DNA from: Alphaproteobacteria bacterium
GTDB lineage: Bacteria > Pseudomonadota > Alphaproteobacteria > Micropepsales > Micropepsaceae
Direction: 5' to 3'
DNA length: 64,000 bases
NCBI GenBank assembly: GCA_028871795.1
Contig: JAGWMG010000003.1
Coordinates: 186,001-250,000 of the forward strand
Shown: positions 10,355-64,000 of the stretch, piece by piece
Position numbering within the stretch: the first letter of the stretch is position 1
Layout of the letters: the number at the start of each line of letters is the position of its first letter
Translations under genes and position numbers: made by a program
The notes under the pieces: generated by a model
Told to the model about the DNA's origin: nothing
The model's database searches: none
Seen by the model: the letters and a program-made list of their open reading frames with translations, nothing else

Positions 10355-12121
10355 CTATAAATGCGTCCGCTCGGAGCGGAGCCCGGCGAGCCGTTTCGCC
10401 GTCAGGCTGCGTGGCCGAAAAGACGCGGACAGGTGGCCGAGTGGCTGAAGGCGCACGCCTGGAAAGTGTGTGAACGGTGCTGAGCCGTTCCGAGGGTTCG
10501 AATCCCTCCCTGTCCGCCAGTTCAGAACAGAACTGCGAACGCCGGGCGCAGCCGGCTTTACGCCGGCCGCGGCGGTCAAGGTCTGAAGCAGGTTGCTCTT
10601 CGAACCGATGATGCGGACTTCGCGGTCTGCGACCTCGACGCGCTGGGCGAGCGCGCGGAGATGGTCGCGGCGATAACCGCCGCCGTCGATCCTGATGCGT
10701 TCGCGCGCCGTCCTGGCGAACCTCTGGACCATCTGCGGCGTGATGGATTGCTGCGTTGACGATTCCAGCATTGCGGCGGCACGCGCCGCGTCGGCTTGTG
10801 CTTGGTCACGGATCGCCTTGAGGCTCGCGATGCGCTCCTTCAGCGCCGGGTCGTCGAGATCGGCGACACCGGCCTCGATGGCGTCATAGAGCCGCTTGAG
10901 CCGCAGGTCAGTCTCGGCGGCGCGCTTGCTCAGTTCGGCGACGTGCTGGCGGCGGCGCTCGGCCCGCTCCTGCCGGCGGTCGAGGACGGACGCCAATATT
11001 TCCTCGAGCCGTTCCGGCTGGAGCAAACGATCGGCGAGATGCTCCGCGACGAGGTTATCCAGCTTCTCCATCGGGATCGAGCGGCCCTTGCAGCCGGTCT
11101 CGCCCTGCCGGGCTTTGATCGAGCATGTGTAGTAGCGATACCGCCCTCCCTTGCCGGTCCTGAGCGTCATGGCGCCGCCGCAGGCGGCGCAGAAGCAGAT
11201 GCCGGTAAGGAGGGTCGGACCGCTCACGACCCGCGCCGGCGTGACCTTCGGATTCCGAGCGTGCAGATGCGCCTACACGGCGTCGAACGTCGTCTGATCG
11301 ATCAGCGGCGGCACCTCGACGGTAACGATCTCGCTGGCCGGTTTCAGCATCTTGTTCTTGGCGCGCTTGTTGAACTCGTGGCGGCCGACATAGGTCGTCC
11401 GCGTCAGAATGCGATGCACTTGGCCGATGCCCCATCGCCCGCCGTCGCGGGTGAAGATGCGATGCTGGTTGAGATGGGTCGCGATGTTCTTGACGCCCAT
11501 CGGGCCGGATGTGCCGTCGCCTTCCAAGGCGAGGCGATAGATCAGCCGCACCGTGTCGGCGTGCAGCGGATCGATTTCCAGCTTCTTCTTGACCTTGGCG
11601 CCCCGCTGCTCGGCCGCGACGATACGGTAGCCGATCGGCGGCAGCGAGCCGTTCCAGAATCCCTGCCGGGCATTTTCCTTCAGGGCGCGCAGAACGTGCT
11701 TGGCGTTCTCCTTGGACTGATATTCGTCGAACAGCGCCATGATCTGCCGCATCATGACGTGCATTGGGTCGTCGCCCATCTCCTGCGTGATCGAGACAAG
11801 CCGGACGCCGTTCTTCGCCAGCCTGCGGACGTAGAACTCCAACTCGAAGTGGTCGCGGAAGAAGCGTGAGAAGCTGTGGACGATGACGATATCGAATGGC
11901 GCGGGCTTGCTGGTGCCCGCCTCGATCATGCGCTGGAACTCGGGGCGTCGGTCATTCGTGGCGGATGCACCTGGCTCCACATAGGTTTCGACGAGTTGGT
12001 AACCGCGCGATGCGCAATAGGCTTCGCCCTGACGCTTCTGATCGGGAATCGAGACATCGTGCTCGGCCTGCCGCGCCGTCGAGACGCGCAGGTACAAGGC
12101 GGCGCGCAGAGGCACGGTCAT
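10355..12121 (-). pseudogene. Large serine recombinase, split by an in-frame amber codon
   Basis: Site-specific recombinase of the resolvase/large serine integrase type. The N-terminal catalytic domain is intact: LYLRVSTARQ with the nucleophilic serine near residue 14, then the recombinase domain up to DQTTFDAV. A TAG at 11273-11275 stops the frame, and the same frame resumes immediately (AHLHARNPKVTPARVVSGPT) into the zinc ribbon (CFCAACGG...YYTC...GCKG) and a coiled-coil tail. A single C-to-T change of a CAG codon explains the break. After about 10540 the frame runs antisense through tRNA-Ser, giving a spurious tail (WRTGRDSNPR). The gene probably integrated the neighbouring element and is now inactive, unless the amber codon is suppressed or read through. 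Confidence 0.88.
10427..10519 (+). tRNA. tRNA-Ser (anticodon GGA)
   Basis: Complete class II tRNA. Acceptor arms GGACAGG and CCTGTCC pair perfectly; the D-arm is GCCGAGTGGCTGAAGGC, the anticodon loop CTGGAAA (GGA), the long variable arm GAACGGTGCTGAGCCGTTC, and the T-arm GAGGGTTCGAATCCCTC, with discriminator G and an encoded CCA. Reads UCC and UCU codons. A weak -10-like TATAAA lies at 10356-10361. The 3' end abuts a serine-recombinase pseudogene in opposite orientation, making this tRNA the probable attachment site of the element to its right. Confidence 0.97.
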
Positions 12122-57615: not shown

Positions 57616-58425
57616 ATGAACTATCGCCACACCTTCCACGCCGGGAATTTCGCCGACGTCGCAAAACACACAGCGCTGGTTGCGGTGTTGTTGCATCTCC
57701 GCAAACGGGAATCTGCCTTTGCGGTCATCGACAGCCATGCCGGCCGCGGCGTCTACGATCTTCGCAGCCAGGAAGCGTTACGCACGGGCGAGGCGGCAAA
57801 CGGCGTCGGCCGGCTCGCCGGTTTGCAGGACTGTCCGCCGGCGCTCGCCGCGTATCTCGAGCTTGCGCGCGCACCCGAAGCCTATCCCGGGTCGCCGCTG
57901 ATCGCCGCGAAGTTGCTGAGGCCGCAGGACAGACTGGTTGCCGTCGAGAAGCATCCCGAAGATGCCGCGGCGCTGGCGGCCGTGCTCAAGCCATTCCGCA
58001 AGGCGCGGGCGGAGAGTGGCGACGGATATGCGCGCCTAGCGGCTCTATTGCCGCCGCCGGAGCGGCGTGCGGCTATCCTGATCGATCCGCCCTACGAGTC
58101 CGCGCATGAATTCTCCGACGCCGCGCGCGCTCTGACCGGAGCGCTGCGCCGCTTTGCAACGGGAATCTATCTCATCTGGTTTCCGATCAAATCGCCGGCC
58201 GAAGCGGACGGATTTTGCGGTGAAGTGCTGGCGTCGGGTGCACGAAAGGCGTTGCGCCTGGACGTGATGCGGAGCGCGCCTCGCGACGATCGTCTGACGG
58301 CCGCCGGCTTGGTGATCGTCAATCCGCCGTTCAAATTCGAGGAGGAGATGCGCGCGGCACTGACGCTCGCGCTTCCACCTATGGGCGCACAAGCGCGGTT
58401 CCTTTGGCTGGCGGGCGACGATTAG
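57616..58425 (+). CDS. rlmJ: 23S rRNA (adenine-2030 N6)-methyltransferase
   Basis: A 269-residue SAM-dependent RNA methyltransferase that modifies A2030 of 23S rRNA. N-terminal MNYRHTFHAGNFADVAKHT is diagnostic for RlmJ; the catalytic IDPPYE motif is at ~156-161, and IVNPPFKFEEEM near the C-terminus is also conserved. Full length. Followed ~160 bases later by the broken tRNA-Ser. Confidence 0.95.
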   Translation: MNYRHTFHAGNFADVAKHTALVAVLLHLRKRESAFAVIDSHAGRGVYDLRSQEALRTGEAANGVGRLAGLQDCPPALAAYLELARAPEAYPGSPLIAAKLLRPQDRLVAVEKHPEDAAALAAVLKPFRKARAESGDGYARLAALLPPPERRAAILIDPPYESAHEFSDAARALTGALRRFATGIYLIWFPIKSPAEADGFCGEVLASGARKALRLDVMRSAPRDDRLTAAGLVIVNPPFKFEEEMRAALTLALPPMGAQARFLWLAGDD

Positions 58426-58584
58426 GAGTCGGGCGCATTTTCGTTCGGCTATGCAGCGGCCGACCACGGCCGCGCCTTGCTAGAGGTGATTGTTCTGCCG
58501 ATTTCGTCTCCTGCGCTGCGTGCCCGGCTGCGCACCGGGGCGCTTGCTATCCCGTGCGACCTTAAGTATTTGATCTCGCAAGAC

Positions 58585-58624
58585 GGACAGGTGGCTGAGC
58601 GGTTGAAAGCACCGCACTCGAAAT
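58585..58624 (+). pseudogene. Truncated tRNA-Ser (anticodon CGA), 5' half only
   Basis: GGACAGG acceptor strand, D-arm GCTGAGCGGTTGAAAGC, the anticodon-stem strand CCGCA and loop CTCGAAA are intact. The expected 3' stem TGCGG is replaced by TACAG, and no variable arm, T-arm or acceptor 3' strand follows in the next several hundred bases. The acceptor strand is identical to that of tRNA-Ser(GGA) at 10427. The break at the anticodon arm coincides with a fall in GC content to the right, which suggests insertion of foreign DNA. Confidence 0.8.
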
Positions 58625-59080
58625 ACAGGCCGGGCGTTTGAAGTGGATTCACTCTGCGCGCAAACCGTGTGATCAGCAAACAGGTTAGCGCCCGTACAGC
58701 TAACGTCTCTTCACACCTAATCGAACGTGATTTCACGTAGGTCTGGTCCAGTATGTGGTCCCAAAATGCGGCGTTAGAATCACGGCTACAGTGCAATCGC
58801 GCCCAGACCACTAGCAGCGGCATACTGAATTCGCCTACTCGGGTAATTCGCCGTCGCGAGCGCCCATCAGGCGGCAGCCCTAGGTGCATTTGCGTTCAAA
58901 CGAACTGCTGATATTGGGCGACGACATGGCCTCAGGATTACCACAACCAAGCACTATGTGATGGCAATCACCGGATAATTTGGCTCCTTCGGCAGGAATT
59001 GACCTGCGGCGCCCACAACCTTGTCTTGTCGTTAACGCTCAGGCACAATCGCCTGAAAGTCTTGGGGCAGGGGGGAAGGA
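58625..59080. other. Non-coding stretch at the left end of the AT-richer region
   Basis: About 455 bases. No reliable gene; open frames on the minus strand cross the broken tRNA and have no sensible product. GGCAGGGGGGAAGG lies just upstream of the first transporter gene. I searched for a tRNA 3' half and for an integrase start and found neither. Confidence 0.5.
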
Positions 59081-60181
59081 ATGCGTAATACTCGACTTTG
59101 GGCCTGGGTAGCGGCGTTTATAGCGATCTGCGCTGCGGCATATTTCTATTTTTTTAATCCTCTCGCACCGCAACAGCCAACGATAAACGTTCTCGCCTGG
59201 ACAGGCTATGAGGAACCGCAACTTACTCAAGCTTTTGAAAAGGCCACCGGCATTCGAGTTAATGTCAAGACATATGTTGGCGGCGATCAGATGTATTCGA
59301 TCTTCTCGACAACAAAGAACACCTACGATGCAGTGATCGTCGATACGGAATATCTCAAGCCCCTCCATGATGCCGGACGGCTCTCGGCTCTTGAGGCAAA
59401 TTCGCTGAACTACACGGGTTATTTCCCCTATTTTGTCACCTTCCCAAGTGCGCATTTCGGCGGTGAGACGTTTGGCGTCCCCGTTCGCTTTGGCGTCAAT
59501 GGGATTGTGTACAACACAGACCATTTTTCGGAGCAGGATGTGCAAAGCTATGCCGTTCTGATGTCTGATCGCGCGAAGGGGCACGTGGGAATTTGGGACT
59601 GGTATTTGCCGAGCATGGGTGTCCTAAGCAAAGCCGTCGGGAATCACGACGCGTATAATTTAACGGAGGCTCAGTATATAAGCCTCCTTAAAGAGATGCG
59701 GGAGTTGCGTCCACAGGTGGCGGCAATTCACCCGACACCACCCGACATGATTGCTGCGCTCGCTGATGGCCGAACTTGGCTTGTTCCCGGCGTCGGAGAT
59801 TGGGTGGCGTCCGTGCTCGAAGCCCAAGGCAAGCACATTGACTGGGCCGTGCCGAAAGAGGGGGGTATTATGTGGGTCGAGACGCTAACGATCCCATCCG
59901 ATGCGCCACATCGCGAACTCGCCAAGAAATATTTAGAGTGGATGATGTCACCTCAAGCGCAGGCTATACTGACTCAACTACACGCGTACAATTCCAACGC
60001 GACTAATCGCCTGACGTACACGTTCCTAACAGCGGCCCAACGTCACCGGCTCAAGGCCGATAGCGACAAGAACGTCGAAGCAATGATCGAGAATCTCAGT
60101 CTGCGCGAGTTGCCAAAAGCGCAGGACCCGCGTCGTTGGCAAAACGATTGGCAGGGGTTTAAGGCCAACACCCTGCATTAG
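59081..60181 (+). CDS. Polyamine-type ABC transporter substrate-binding protein
   Basis: A 366-residue PotD/SBP_bac-like protein. An N-terminal hydrophobic segment (residues ~6-26) is a signal anchor. The binding fold begins INVLAWTGYEEPQLTQAFEK and includes TYDAVIVDTEYLKPLHDAGR, FGVPVRFGVNGIVYNTDHFS and GIWDWYLPS (~170-178). It should deliver a small cationic or related solute to the permeases at 61882-63437. Codon and base use are AT-richer than the main window. First gene of a five-gene operon. Confidence 0.85.
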   Translation: MRNTRLWAWVAAFIAICAAAYFYFFNPLAPQQPTINVLAWTGYEEPQLTQAFEKATGIRVNVKTYVGGDQMYSIFSTTKNTYDAVIVDTEYLKPLHDAGRLSALEANSLNYTGYFPYFVTFPSAHFGGETFGVPVRFGVNGIVYNTDHFSEQDVQSYAVLMSDRAKGHVGIWDWYLPSMGVLSKAVGNHDAYNLTEAQYISLLKEMRELRPQVAAIHPTPPDMIAALADGRTWLVPGVGDWVASVLEAQGKHIDWAVPKEGGIMWVETLTIPSDAPHRELAKKYLEWMMSPQAQAILTQLHAYNSNATNRLTYTFLTAAQRHRLKADSDKNVEAMIENLSLRELPKAQDPRRWQNDWQGFKANTLH

Positions 60182-60247: not shown

Positions 60248-61909
60248 ATGGGCAGCGCAGACTCGATTGCCAGCGGAAGTGTGAATTCGACTGGCGCAGG
60301 CTTCGACATCATCGGGTTCTTGAGCAATCCGGCCATCCTCAAGCTGATTGGTGTTCTGGCGATCTTGGCGACGTTCTATGCGCTGATTCCTGAACGTCTC
60401 CGCTCCACGCACGCGAATTCCATGTTTGCCCTGATCGGAAGAGCGCTTCGCCCTTTGGCTTGGTTGCTGTTGAAGCCTTTGCAAGCAGTGAACTCAATAA
60501 TCCCACATTATCTGCGGAGGTCCGCGCATCCTTTTGTCCGAATACTGCACCGACGGGAAAGTGCATGGGTTGCGGTTGTTGGTGTTGCTCTACTTATACT
60601 ATTTTATTGGAGTCCGACGCCGCATCCGAAATTCGCGGCTTGGGTGCATAACGAAGTCACGTTTGCTGTTCTAACCGCTCTTCTCGTTTGGTATATCTTG
60701 TGGTGGTTGGCCAAGGATGCACCGAGTGGCCGCTCTAGCGGCCCGCTCACTCATGTCATCGCGTGGCTGGGGTGGGAAGAGGACCGACTATATAGCAGGC
60801 CGAGCGCCACGACAGTATCGAAGGAAGTCCTAAATTTTCTCACTTACGCGCGTGGTTTCGGAGCAGTACCAAAGCTCTATAGCTCCAATGGTGTCGCATT
60901 TGATTTGCTAATCGCGGACATGGAGTACTTGCCATATTATTATAAGGCCGACCGGCTTGAGGATTTGACGGGTCTAATTCTACCAAAATTTGCTCCCTTC
61001 ATAAACACACTAAAAGGGGGCGAGACGACGCGTGCGGGTTTCGTTATGGGGATTCCCTTACGTTGTGGCTTTCAGGAAATTCTCATTAGTAACGAAGTGC
61101 GCGATGCGCTAATGCCGACACGACAAGTGATGCTGAGTTACAAGGACTTGAAGATAGAGGACATACTCGCACTCGACCCGACCGGACAAACAAAAATCGG
61201 CATATGGAATTGGTATCTACCGGCCCTATCAGTTCTTTTGGCTGTCTATGGAAACGGTGCATGCCATCTCGATGATGTGTGCCGTTTTGATGAAACAGAA
61301 GTGCGGCGCGTCCTTGACCAGATTATGAGTCTTGGAATCGCAAATCGTCTTGTCTTTATGAATTCGGTCGAAGAAATCTACGTGACTGCACGTGATCACA
61401 ACCTCGCTGCGGTCTACGGCGCAGGCAGTTGGGCACTCCCTGCCCCGTTCGAGTCAACTCAAGCAGTGTCAGACGCCAATTTCATTGAGGAATGTGCACT
61501 GCTCCCGGCGATCCCTACAGAGGGTTTGTTCGCCTGGATTGAATGTGCGACGATCCTATCGGACAGTAAGAGCTCGGATCGCAATCGAGCAATCGAGCTA
61601 ATAAAGTACTGGCTCAGCAACGAAACCCAGAAGGAGTTGATGTTTGGGCGCACTTTGCGAGCCCTCCCAGTAACGACCGAGGCTCTACAGTTAGCTCGAA
61701 ATAATTACCGTGGCGTGCCCCCTGTTCTGGTCCTAGATCAAATCGTCGATCACGACCTGAAAATGAAACATGATGTGAAGATCGTCCCCCGACGAATTCC
61801 GCAAACTCTGGACGGTAAAGTGTACCGTGCGGATGAACGCCTTCGGTCAGCTTGGGAAATGGCGTGGTACGAGTTCGAGCAATGGCACAAAAAAGCGGTC
61901 CACAGCTGA
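60248..61909 (+). CDS. Membrane-anchored substrate-binding-like protein (unusual fusion)
   Basis: A 553-residue protein. Residues ~1-160 carry three hydrophobic segments (~30-47, 107-121, 138-154) with basic loops. From ~168 the sequence parallels the previous gene: IAWLGWEEDRLY aligns with LAWTGYEEPQLT, DLLIADMEYLPYYYKADRLE with DAVIVDTEYLKPLHDAGRLS, and GIWNWYLPALSVL (~318) with GIWDWYLPSMGVL. So a complete binding domain is fused to a membrane domain, unlike ordinary soluble binding proteins. It could be a tethered receptor, a second specificity, or a sensor for the transporter. The stop overlaps the next permease start by 28 bases. Confidence 0.8.
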   Translation: MGSADSIASGSVNSTGAGFDIIGFLSNPAILKLIGVLAILATFYALIPERLRSTHANSMFALIGRALRPLAWLLLKPLQAVNSIIPHYLRRSAHPFVRILHRRESAWVAVVGVALLILFYWSPTPHPKFAAWVHNEVTFAVLTALLVWYILWWLAKDAPSGRSSGPLTHVIAWLGWEEDRLYSRPSATTVSKEVLNFLTYARGFGAVPKLYSSNGVAFDLLIADMEYLPYYYKADRLEDLTGLILPKFAPFINTLKGGETTRAGFVMGIPLRCGFQEILISNEVRDALMPTRQVMLSYKDLKIEDILALDPTGQTKIGIWNWYLPALSVLLAVYGNGACHLDDVCRFDETEVRRVLDQIMSLGIANRLVFMNSVEEIYVTARDHNLAAVYGAGSWALPAPFESTQAVSDANFIEECALLPAIPTEGLFAWIECATILSDSKSSDRNRAIELIKYWLSNETQKELMFGRTLRALPVTTEALQLARNNYRGVPPVLVLDQIVDHDLKMKHDVKIVPRRIPQTLDGKVYRADERLRSAWEMAWYEFEQWHKKAVHS

Positions 61910-62688
61910 TAGATCGCCTTCCGTGGGGGGCGCTCTGGTTTCAGGTTCTGGCCGCCGGTCCGGCGGTTGCTCTTGCGTTTGGGCAGATGTTGTGGACGGT
62001 CAATAGACTTCAGCCCGTGTTTTCTCCGAGTTGGCAGCCGCTCACCACGGTCGCAACAAATCCAATCGTCATTCAAGCGATTTTGACGAACGCCGCAATT
62101 GCCGCTGGCGCGGCGATAATTGCGGCTACGGCTAGCTGGCTGATCTGCGTAGCACTTGTTACTCGGACATGGCTGGTCGGATTTGTTGCGCCGCCGTTAG
62201 TGCTCTCGTTCGTCGTTCATCCGACGTTGCGCGCCCTTGCCTGGGGTGAAGTCGCTCAAAACCTACCAATGCCAAACAACATGACCCTGGCGATTTATGC
62301 AACAATCGCGCTCGGGGCGACGATTTTGCCAATGGTCGCGGTCCTTCCAATCCTCTCAGCCCTCCGCTGTATCCACCAATATCGCGACGCAGCAAGAAAT
62401 TTGGGAGGGCGGCCTCGCACATTTGAGAGGAAGATTCTGTTTCCATTTGTCGCATTATCGCTGCTCGTGGGAACGGCAATCGGCTTCTCGATGGCAATGT
62501 TTGACCCCTTTGTCATCCGCGTCGTTTCACAAGGATTATTTCCAAGTGTCGGATCAGTGGTCGCGGACTTTCTTGCAATTAACGATTGGGGACGCGTGTC
62601 CGCGCTGTGTACGTTTGTTTTTCTTCTCACCACGGGAGCCTTTGTGATTGCTGTGCTCGTGATTTCACTGCGCGAGGTTAGGCGATGA
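61882..62688 (+). CDS. ABC transporter permease (PotB-like)
   Basis: A 268-residue binding-protein-dependent permease with six helices. The EAA-type coupling loop is YRDAARNLGGRPRTFERKIL (~residues 162-181). It starts at the ATG at 61882 inside the preceding gene; an upstream ATG at 61852 is unlikely. Forms the transmembrane pore with the next gene's product. Confidence 0.85.
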   Translation: MAQKSGPQLIDRLPWGALWFQVLAAGPAVALAFGQMLWTVNRLQPVFSPSWQPLTTVATNPIVIQAILTNAAIAAGAAIIAATASWLICVALVTRTWLVGFVAPPLVLSFVVHPTLRALAWGEVAQNLPMPNNMTLAIYATIALGATILPMVAVLPILSALRCIHQYRDAARNLGGRPRTFERKILFPFVALSLLVGTAIGFSMAMFDPFVIRVVSQGLFPSVGSVVADFLAINDWGRVSALCTFVFLLTTGAFVIAVLVISLREVRR

Positions 62689-63437
62689 GGAACCCGCCTG
62701 TCGCCTGGGATGCCCCACGACTGCCGTTAGTCGGGACAGGTGGAATTGTTCTGTTGGTTCTGATTCCCATCGCAACAATTGTCATCTTGGGTTACTCGCA
62801 ACTCTCAGCCGTAAGGCCTTACCTAGCGGTTATCGATGTCCCGATTAGTGTTGTAATGGGACTTGCTGTTGCGGTCGCCGTTACAGTCGCTTCACTCTTC
62901 ATCGCTGCGGCAATTCGCTGGGCGCGCTCGCCCTTTCCGATGTGGGCTTATACGGTATTTCTTACCCCAGCAGCCATACCACCGTTGTTGCTAGCATTCG
63001 GATATGCAGGTGCAGCAAATATCGGTGGCGTACAACAGGGGCCGGTGCTTGTTGCGGTAGCTCAGTTTGTCGTGTTCCTACCACTAGGCGTGTTCGCTAC
63101 GTTGAGGCGGGTCACTGCGCTTTCCGATGACCTGATACCGGCTGCGGTCAACCTCGGCGTAACGCCGATTTCAGCTATACTCACTGTGGTCGCACCCCAA
63201 ATAATGCGGGAATTGGTCCTCATTGCGACGGCTATTTTCATTCTTGGCTTCTCTGATGCAGTCTTCACGCTTTTTCTTGCGGGCCCCACACCAACGTTTG
63301 GTCAGGTGATGAATGGTTTGAGCCTCGGCGCCGCAAATAACTTGGCGTTCGCAGTAGGGATTTTCTATGTGTGTATCGTTGTGTTTGCCATCATGGTAGG
63401 CACTTTTGTTGCCTTGCTTGGTAACGCACGGCGTTAA
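62685..63437 (+). CDS. ABC transporter permease (PotC-like)
   Basis: A 250-residue permease with six helices (GIVLLVLIPIATIVILGYSQ; VFLTPAAIPPLLLAFGYAGA). The coupling loop is LIPAAVNLGVTPISAILTVV (~residues 146-165), a degenerate EAA motif. It overlaps the previous gene by four bases (ATGA). Pairs with the PotB-like permease. Confidence 0.87.
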   Translation: MRNPPVAWDAPRLPLVGTGGIVLLVLIPIATIVILGYSQLSAVRPYLAVIDVPISVVMGLAVAVAVTVASLFIAAAIRWARSPFPMWAYTVFLTPAAIPPLLLAFGYAGAANIGGVQQGPVLVAVAQFVVFLPLGVFATLRRVTALSDDLIPAAVNLGVTPISAILTVVAPQIMRELVLIATAIFILGFSDAVFTLFLAGPTPTFGQVMNGLSLGAANNLAFAVGIFYVCIVVFAIMVGTFVALLGNARR

Positions 63438-63453: not shown

Positions 63454-64000
63454 ATGCTTCAGGTTTCGGACGTAACTTGCAGAATCGGTAATCGAGCGAT
63501 TATCGAACGAGTGACCTTTAAGGTCCCCTCGGGAGGCAAGCTTGCACTTTTCGGAAGCAGCGGTTCCGGCAAGACGACCGTTCTCAAGGTGCTTGCTCAA
63601 ACACTTCCACCAAGTGGCGGCACAGCTGTTCTCGATGGCGCATCACTTATTTCTGATCGGGGCCCTGCAAGAGGGATTATGGTTTGGCAGAATCATGTTC
63701 TTTTTGAACATTTGACTGTCGCGGAGAACGTAGCCTTTGGTTTGATTGCTCGGAACGAGCCGGAGGCCAACATCCGCAAGAAGGTTGATGAGATTCTAGA
63801 TAAAATCGGCCTGCCTGGCTTTGCTGGGCGAAAGCTCGCTGGCTTGAGCGGCGGCGAGCGTGCTCGTGTCGCGTTTGCCAGGGCTTTCATACTTCAACCA
63901 CCACTACTCTTGCTGGACGAAGTGTTTTCAAACATCGACGTAGCAACCAAAGCACTACTCTATGGCCTTATCGACGAATATGCGAAGTTACCGCGAAACC
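63454..64000 (+). CDS. ABC transporter ATP-binding protein, partial (runs off the right edge)
   Basis: The first ~182 residues are present. Walker A FGSSGSGKTT (~36-45), Q-loop VWQNHVLFEHLTV, signature LSGGERARVAFARA and Walker B LLLLDEVFSN are intact. The Q-loop-distal part and any TOBE domain lie outside. The start is the ATG at 63454 with AAGGGGGG ten bases upstream; GTG at 63445 is possible. Supplies energy to the two upstream permeases. Walker B reads DEVFSNID, not DEPLSALD, a mild divergence. Confidence 0.88.
   Translation, partial: MLQVSDVTCRIGNRAIIERVTFKVPSGGKLALFGSSGSGKTTVLKVLAQTLPPSGGTAVLDGASLISDRGPARGIMVWQNHVLFEHLTVAENVAFGLIARNEPEANIRKKVDEILDKIGLPGFAGRKLAGLSGGERARVAFARAFILQPPLLLLDEVFSNIDVATKALLYGLIDEYAKLPRN

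Follow-up and report, generated by a model that had tools for sequence, protein, structure and literature searches.

In this work, we analysed 64,000 nucleotides of DNA (hereafter the window; G000:C2:186001-250000, on a contig of a 2.98-Mb draft genome of 22 contigs) in which the first half of a tRNA gene stands without its second half. Our results indicate, with a probability of about 0.93, that this half is the left end of a 13.1-kb integrative island inserted in tRNA-Ser(CGA), whose attP would carry the 5' half of the tRNA and rebuild the gene at the right end. This reading draws on a duplicated tRNA half, a distal intact tRNA with an integrase at its side, repeats at the island ends, recurrence in relatives, unoccupied sites and a native leader box left behind. 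In the proposed mechanism, a tyrosine integrase would recombine the island attP, which brings the 5' half of tRNA-Ser(CGA), with the chromosomal tRNA-Ser(CGA) at the anticodon stem-loop. Following integration, the native leader and the native 5' half would be stranded at the left end, as the fragment seen in the window, and the 5' half of the island would be joined at the right end to the 3' half of the host to form a complete tRNA-Ser(CGA). The island may be spread by a helper phage.

The stranded half and its intact partner

The 41 nucleotides at 58584-58624 (+ strand) correspond to bases -1 to +40 of tRNA-Ser(CGA) with no mismatch. No tRNA is called there by ARAGORN or Rfam in the window scan, the sole tRNA called by these programs in the window being tRNA-Ser(GGA) at 10427-10519. 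The 41 bases are found once more in the genome, again mismatch-free, at C2:257721-257761, which is downstream and outside the window at a spacing of 13,137 bp. Since the match has an E-value of 9.7e-15 in this genome, it is not a chance match. The second copy sits within an intact tRNA-Ser(CGA) (C2:257722-257811), and one tRNA is called in the locus read around the island (L005; L005 positions plus 56000 give the window numbering). The first mismatch between the stranded and the intact copy is base 42, so that identity extends one base past the 7-base anticodon loop CTCGAAA, which bears out the original prediction of a tRNA-Ser(CGA) half cut in the anticodon arm and places the cut at the island boundary. 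The fall in GC after the half is equally real, with 0.65 at L005:2001-2500 followed by 0.55 and 0.52 in steps of 500 bp; the low GC (about 0.50-0.55) is limited to the cargo part, and the remaining island ranges from 0.55 to 0.66.

The original prediction left two outcomes side by side, a broken gene or another half lying beyond the window. An insertion or deletion that destroyed the 3' half, with another tRNA reading the codon, would account for the lack of both a 3' half in the window and a tRNA call at the fragment, but it is very unlikely, as the contig carries an intact tRNA-Ser(CGA) 13.1 kb further downstream and this gene begins with the same 5' half. As judged from its sequence, tRNA-Ser(CGA) is displaced and rebuilt, not broken, and only the second outcome stands. 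In the same vein, it was correctly stated that the 3' half is not seen nearby, but the suspicion that the usual restoration of the tRNA had failed was not borne out: the island does restore the gene, from the 5' side, and this is why the intact copy lies at the far end of the island, away from the stranded half. The intact copy elsewhere and the integrase at the far end that the prediction envisaged are both present, the latter being a tyrosine integrase whose gene stops 117 bp short of the intact tRNA. A genome-wide search for a displaced 3' half (23-nt pattern, at most 2 mismatches) gave no loose fragment, the three matches being the intact tRNA-Ser genes GGA, CGA and TGA.

An assembly error, named at the outset as the finding that would overturn the split, or a tandem duplication could also have put half a tRNA at a contig join. 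Although the draft state of the assembly in 22 contigs leaves room for such an error, it is most unlikely because a single contig of 324 kb contains the two copies and another genome (REEB230) shows the same layout. Besides, island-type sequence also follows the half in a third genome (G003).

Island ends and gene content

Three islands of this type were compared at their ends. Identity between the left and right ends is first lost at base 42 of the common block in G000 and G003 and at base 41 in REEB230, which points to a probable crossover in the anticodon loop. In all three, a pair of TGGTCC repeats with a spacing of 12 bp lies about 120 bp into the island at the left end, and another pair, spaced by 11 bp, precedes the rebuilt tRNA by 82-83 bp at the right end. 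The pattern TGGTCCN{5,6}TGGTCC is found 3, 3 and 2 times in G000, G098 and G003, respectively, and none of these eight occurrences falls outside the islands and their ends. The counts are 2, 2 and 1 in three genomes that do not encode this integrase, the reversed control gives 0-2 per genome, and no TGGTCC pair appears in shuffles of L005. The pairs may serve as arm-type sites of the integrase or of its excisionase. Both complete islands have a third pair, inverted, in the gap that follows the terS-like gene at its 3' end (L005:9625-9642 and L042:5390-5407); it is unexplained and might be an old att arm, a packaging site or a regulator site.

The structure of the ends also bears on tRNA-dependent lysogeny, in which integration destroys the host tRNA and the element supplies a complete one in its place. 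The two situations have in common a tyrosine integrase that targets a host tRNA gene, and the intact tRNA at the island edge, with its island-borne 5' half, could be taken for such a replacement. However, the common block is 41 bp long and not about 10 bp as in the definition available from PMC10865867, and the intact gene is located exactly at the att junction and not inside the element. The tRNA is rebuilt by a 41-bp common half with no separate complete tRNA, and an element of this kind is thus highly improbable here.

Between the two tRNA copies, the island encodes an ABC-transporter operon, an HTH regulator, a membrane protein, a terS-like and a primase-like protein, small ORFs, an HTH_17 protein, a protein of unknown family and the integrase, in that order (Table 1). 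Its right limit is G000:C2:257761, past the end of the window. The integrase carries R203, H329-x-x-R332, H355 and Y365 in the expected motifs, with roles that we assume for these residues. No relative of the first binding protein was detected at E ≤ 1e-40 when the remaining 95 of the 96 genomes of the order were searched. Among 50,697 phage records, the terS-like protein has no match and all matches of the integrase are below 60%, the best being about 30%; no phage structural or lytic gene was found among the island proteins scanned, a set from which some small ORFs are absent. To the right of the rebuilt tRNA (L005:15812-18583), two ORFs were recognized by reading, one HTH-like and one for an IS110-like transposase.

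Table 1. Features of the island and its left flank, in window positions or, past the window end, in positions of L005
Feature	Position	Strand	Basis
rlmJ-like host gene, left flank	57616..58425	+	Pfam RsmJ/RlmJ E 4.3e-59; upstream of tRNA-Ser(CGA) in relatives
Stranded native leader box CTTGC..TAT of tRNA-Ser(CGA)	58543..58569	+	conserved at unoccupied sites
Stranded 5' half of tRNA-Ser(CGA), island left end (attL)	58584..58624	+	41/41 identical to G000:C2:257721-257761
Anticodon loop CTCGAAA, probable 7-bp crossover region	58617..58623	+	in three islands, base 41 or 40 of the block is the last one identical between the ends
Left TGGTCC pair, probable arm-type sites	58744..58761	+	0 expected in window shuffles
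Cargo: solute-binding protein, putrescine/spermidine type	59081..60181	+	Pfam SBP_bac_8 E 8.2e-24; PotD-type model E 2e-22, below cut-off
Cargo: second binding protein, weakly similar, N-terminal hydrophobic stretches	60248..61909	+	SBP_bac_8 E 1.2e-4, below cut-off
Cargo: ABC permease, weak	61870..62688	+	TIGR02139 E 1.3e-4, below cut-off; no Pfam match
Cargo: ABC permease	62685..63437	+	BPD_transp_1 E 5.1e-5, below cut-off
Cargo: ABC ATPase	63454..64000, on to L005:8509	+	ABC_tran E 3.1e-28
HTH regulator	L005:8717-9007		
Membrane protein	L005:9138-9524		
terS-like gene	L005:9796-10323		Terminase_2 E 9.6e-6; phrog_51 E 4.5e-11
Primase-like gene	L005:10608-12917		DUF3854; phrog_19930 E 3.2e-24
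HTH_17 gene, weak AlpA-type similarity	within L005:13465-13827		
Gene without known family	L005:13831-14424		
Tyrosine integrase	L005:14429-15604 (C2:256429-257604)		phrog_1 E 1.1e-67; ends 117 bp before the intact tRNA

Occupied sites, unoccupied sites and relics

At E ≤ 1e-50, the integrase is present in three of the 96 genomes of the order, G000, G098 and G003, and the proteins of the last two, both from the genus of G000, are 79% identical to that of G000. G098:C90 and REEB230 contig JAGWNK010000020.1 (locus L042) are treated here as one. The REEB230 island has an intact tRNA-Ser(CGA) at L042:12219-12309 and a 5' half at L042:1752-1790 (39/39 identical), about 10.47 kb apart. It has in common with the G000 island the layout and the terS-like, HTH_17 and integrase genes, but the cargo differs, as does the primase-like gene apart from DUF3854; rlmJ is also on the side of the fragment in G098, about 2.3 kb away. 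In G003, C147 carries the integrase and 80 bases of the tRNA, which runs off the contig end, and C172 carries the 5' half with island-type sequence after it, so that this island is spread over two contigs, with rlmJ on a third.

More distant integrases (at most 36% identity) were inspected at 78 of the 79 loci of one search (all but L042) and at 80 loci of a second one. Over the 161 loci scanned in all, 88 tRNAs were called and a copy running from base 1 to the anticodon was found only in L042 and L005; three loci (L048, L074 and L098) contain 3'-half copies instead. No further complete 5'-type case emerged among these distant relatives, within flanks of at most 10 kb and on contigs cut at prophage ends, which limit the scan. 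At L082:1990-2120 (Gammaproteobacteria MAG CR02bin7), a tRNA-Ser 5' half ending just past the anticodon stem adjoins a distant (33%) relative of the integrase in a locus where no tRNA is called; this is perhaps another 5'-type island. A fourth terS-like homologue (36%) is encoded at G099:C1:2915227-2915640 (L243), in a genome without this integrase, and a partial 3' copy (85.7%) of a tRNA-Gly lies about 7 kb from that tRNA in the same locus, perhaps marking an ordinary 3'-type island.

The same genome has a second tRNA gene with a repeated 5' half. The first 41 bases of tRNA-Ser(TGA) (C4:7775-7865, minus strand) are repeated about 27.6 kb upstream, at C4:35394-35433 (minus strand) and one base beyond. 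The integrase beside the intact gene (phrog_1 E 7.1e-57) is 25% identical over part of its length to that of the tRNA-Ser(CGA) island. Of 15 relatives from the same genus, eight have an intact tRNA-Ser(TGA) where the fragment lies in G000, beside a dacC-like gene. This layout indicates that tRNA-Ser(TGA) of G000 is split by a further island of the 5' type, with a different integrase. By ORF reading, its cargo (G000:C4:7775-35433; L231 and L232) appears to relate to the use of GlcNAc/chitin (deacetylase, PTS, hexosaminidase and TonB receptor).

Unoccupied sites were sought at the rlmJ loci of 29 relatives (30 loci for 39 matches, one of them G000 itself). Among the matches listed, rlmJ is followed on its own strand by a full-length tRNA-Ser(CGA) at 13 of the 29 loci, and at one locus the tRNA is cut by the contig end. 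The other 15 show no tRNA-Ser(CGA) in the bases examined; one of them, G026, has it about 5.6 kb further on. Twelve relatives among the matches listed, with an unbroken tRNA behind rlmJ, represent unoccupied sites, and the thirteenth, G007, is a relic. On the right, the flank of the G000 island has no counterpart in the three relatives compared, except for a single 30% match, so that the evidence for empty sites comes from the left flank only.

These loci reveal an exchange of leaders. The CTTGC..TAT box is found at most 46 bp upstream of the tRNA in all 14 unoccupied sites (the 12 relatives, the cut one and G026) and in two of the three island left ends (G000 and G003, the REEB230 left end being without it), and in none of the three right ends and two relics. 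A TTTGTTC-N15-GCGTTC block occurs in 5/5 right ends and relics and in 0/17 unoccupied sites and left ends. It follows from these distributions that the stranded half retains the native leader and that the rebuilt tRNA has the leader of the island. The box is presumably the promoter of the native tRNA, and the rebuilt gene would then be transcribed from the right-end sequence of the island or by read-through from int. A scan for the sigma-70 consensus gave no promoter before either tRNA copy, native or island-borne, and being empty at both it is uninformative on promoter use. Together with the block, the interval from int to the rebuilt tRNA contains a possible hairpin (L005:15665-15720 and matching places in L042, L202, L013 and L244), which folds in all five right ends with z-scores of -0.35 to -2.6 and an uncertain alignment register.

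Finally, the right-end block is joined to the tRNA in five of the 96 genomes of the order, the three with the integrase plus G007 and G019, which have no integrase match at E ≤ 1e-50. The gap between rlmJ and the tRNA in G007 is 230 bp long and includes what appear to be the last integrase codons (..FFLSNVPKDM*) and the right-end block, with no TGGTCC, native box or 5' fragment; the same segment is found in G019 about 1.5 kb after rlmJ. In both genomes, tRNA-Ser(CGA) is intact behind the leader of the island. One ancestral island, largely deleted since, would explain both.

Possible leader capture and comparison with known systems

The half tRNA is explained by an integration mode that is already known, though uncommon. 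The full islands, the unoccupied sites and the two relics, all from a single genus, can be read as a natural series: the leader of a host tRNA is displaced, replaced and, in the relics, kept replaced. The sequence evidence for leader displacement in a single bacterial genus is unusually complete. This series makes the source of transcription of the rebuilt tRNA and the stabilisation of the island directly testable. A tentative and rather speculative extension is that leader capture could make the island hard to lose, the host tRNA depending on the right end of the island after integration, the native promoter decaying and the right end being kept as a lasting leader once most of the island is deleted. 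As both tRNA-Ser(CGA) and tRNA-Ser(TGA) are split from the 5' side in G000, such capture would then be a stabilising strategy of these islands. If so, the missing box of REEB230 may reflect a native promoter that is free to decay, and G007 and G019 may be cases in which the right end was kept.

Among known elements, the G000 island resembles Gram-negative PICIs, as outlined in PMC6092414, by its size of about 13 kb and by its integrase, primase-like gene, terS-like gene and weak AlpA-like regulator. It differs from them by its ABC-transporter cargo and by the weakness of its regulator match. Compared with a PICI size of about 12-15 kb, the islands measure 13.1 and 10.5 kb, with clear integrase and primase-like genes and a weak AlpA-type match. 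The G000 island is probably satellite-like, and we do not call it a PICI.

The use of a tRNA 5' half as att site has been described for archaeal integrases of the pTN3 type, for which a review assigns expression of the rebuilt gene to the promoter of the integrase (PMC8371274), and it is seldom met in bacteria according to Williams 2002 as quoted in PMC8371274. In pTN3, the account in PMC5495485 reports a 41-bp common block and a tRNA separated from its original promoter. The G000 island is similar to these integrative plasmids in that its att site is a tRNA 5' half, of 41 bp in both, and in that the tRNA is rebuilt away from its original promoter. Unlike them, it is bacterial, and its integrase is not split by integration and adjoins the rebuilt tRNA.

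The closest counterparts are the 5'-tDNA islands of the Islander collection, in which 159 of 3,919 islands have a 5' tRNA fragment and 2,083 use the anticodon site, according to PMC4383910. As in the G000 island, these have an intact tRNA, an upstream 5' fragment in the same orientation and an integrase in between, over 2-200 kb; indeed, the G000 island combines an upstream 5' fragment, an integrase between the two copies, an end in the anticodon region and an unoccupied site in relatives. No difference in layout was found with respect to that description, to which the G000 series adds relics and a conserved island leader that document the leader exchange.
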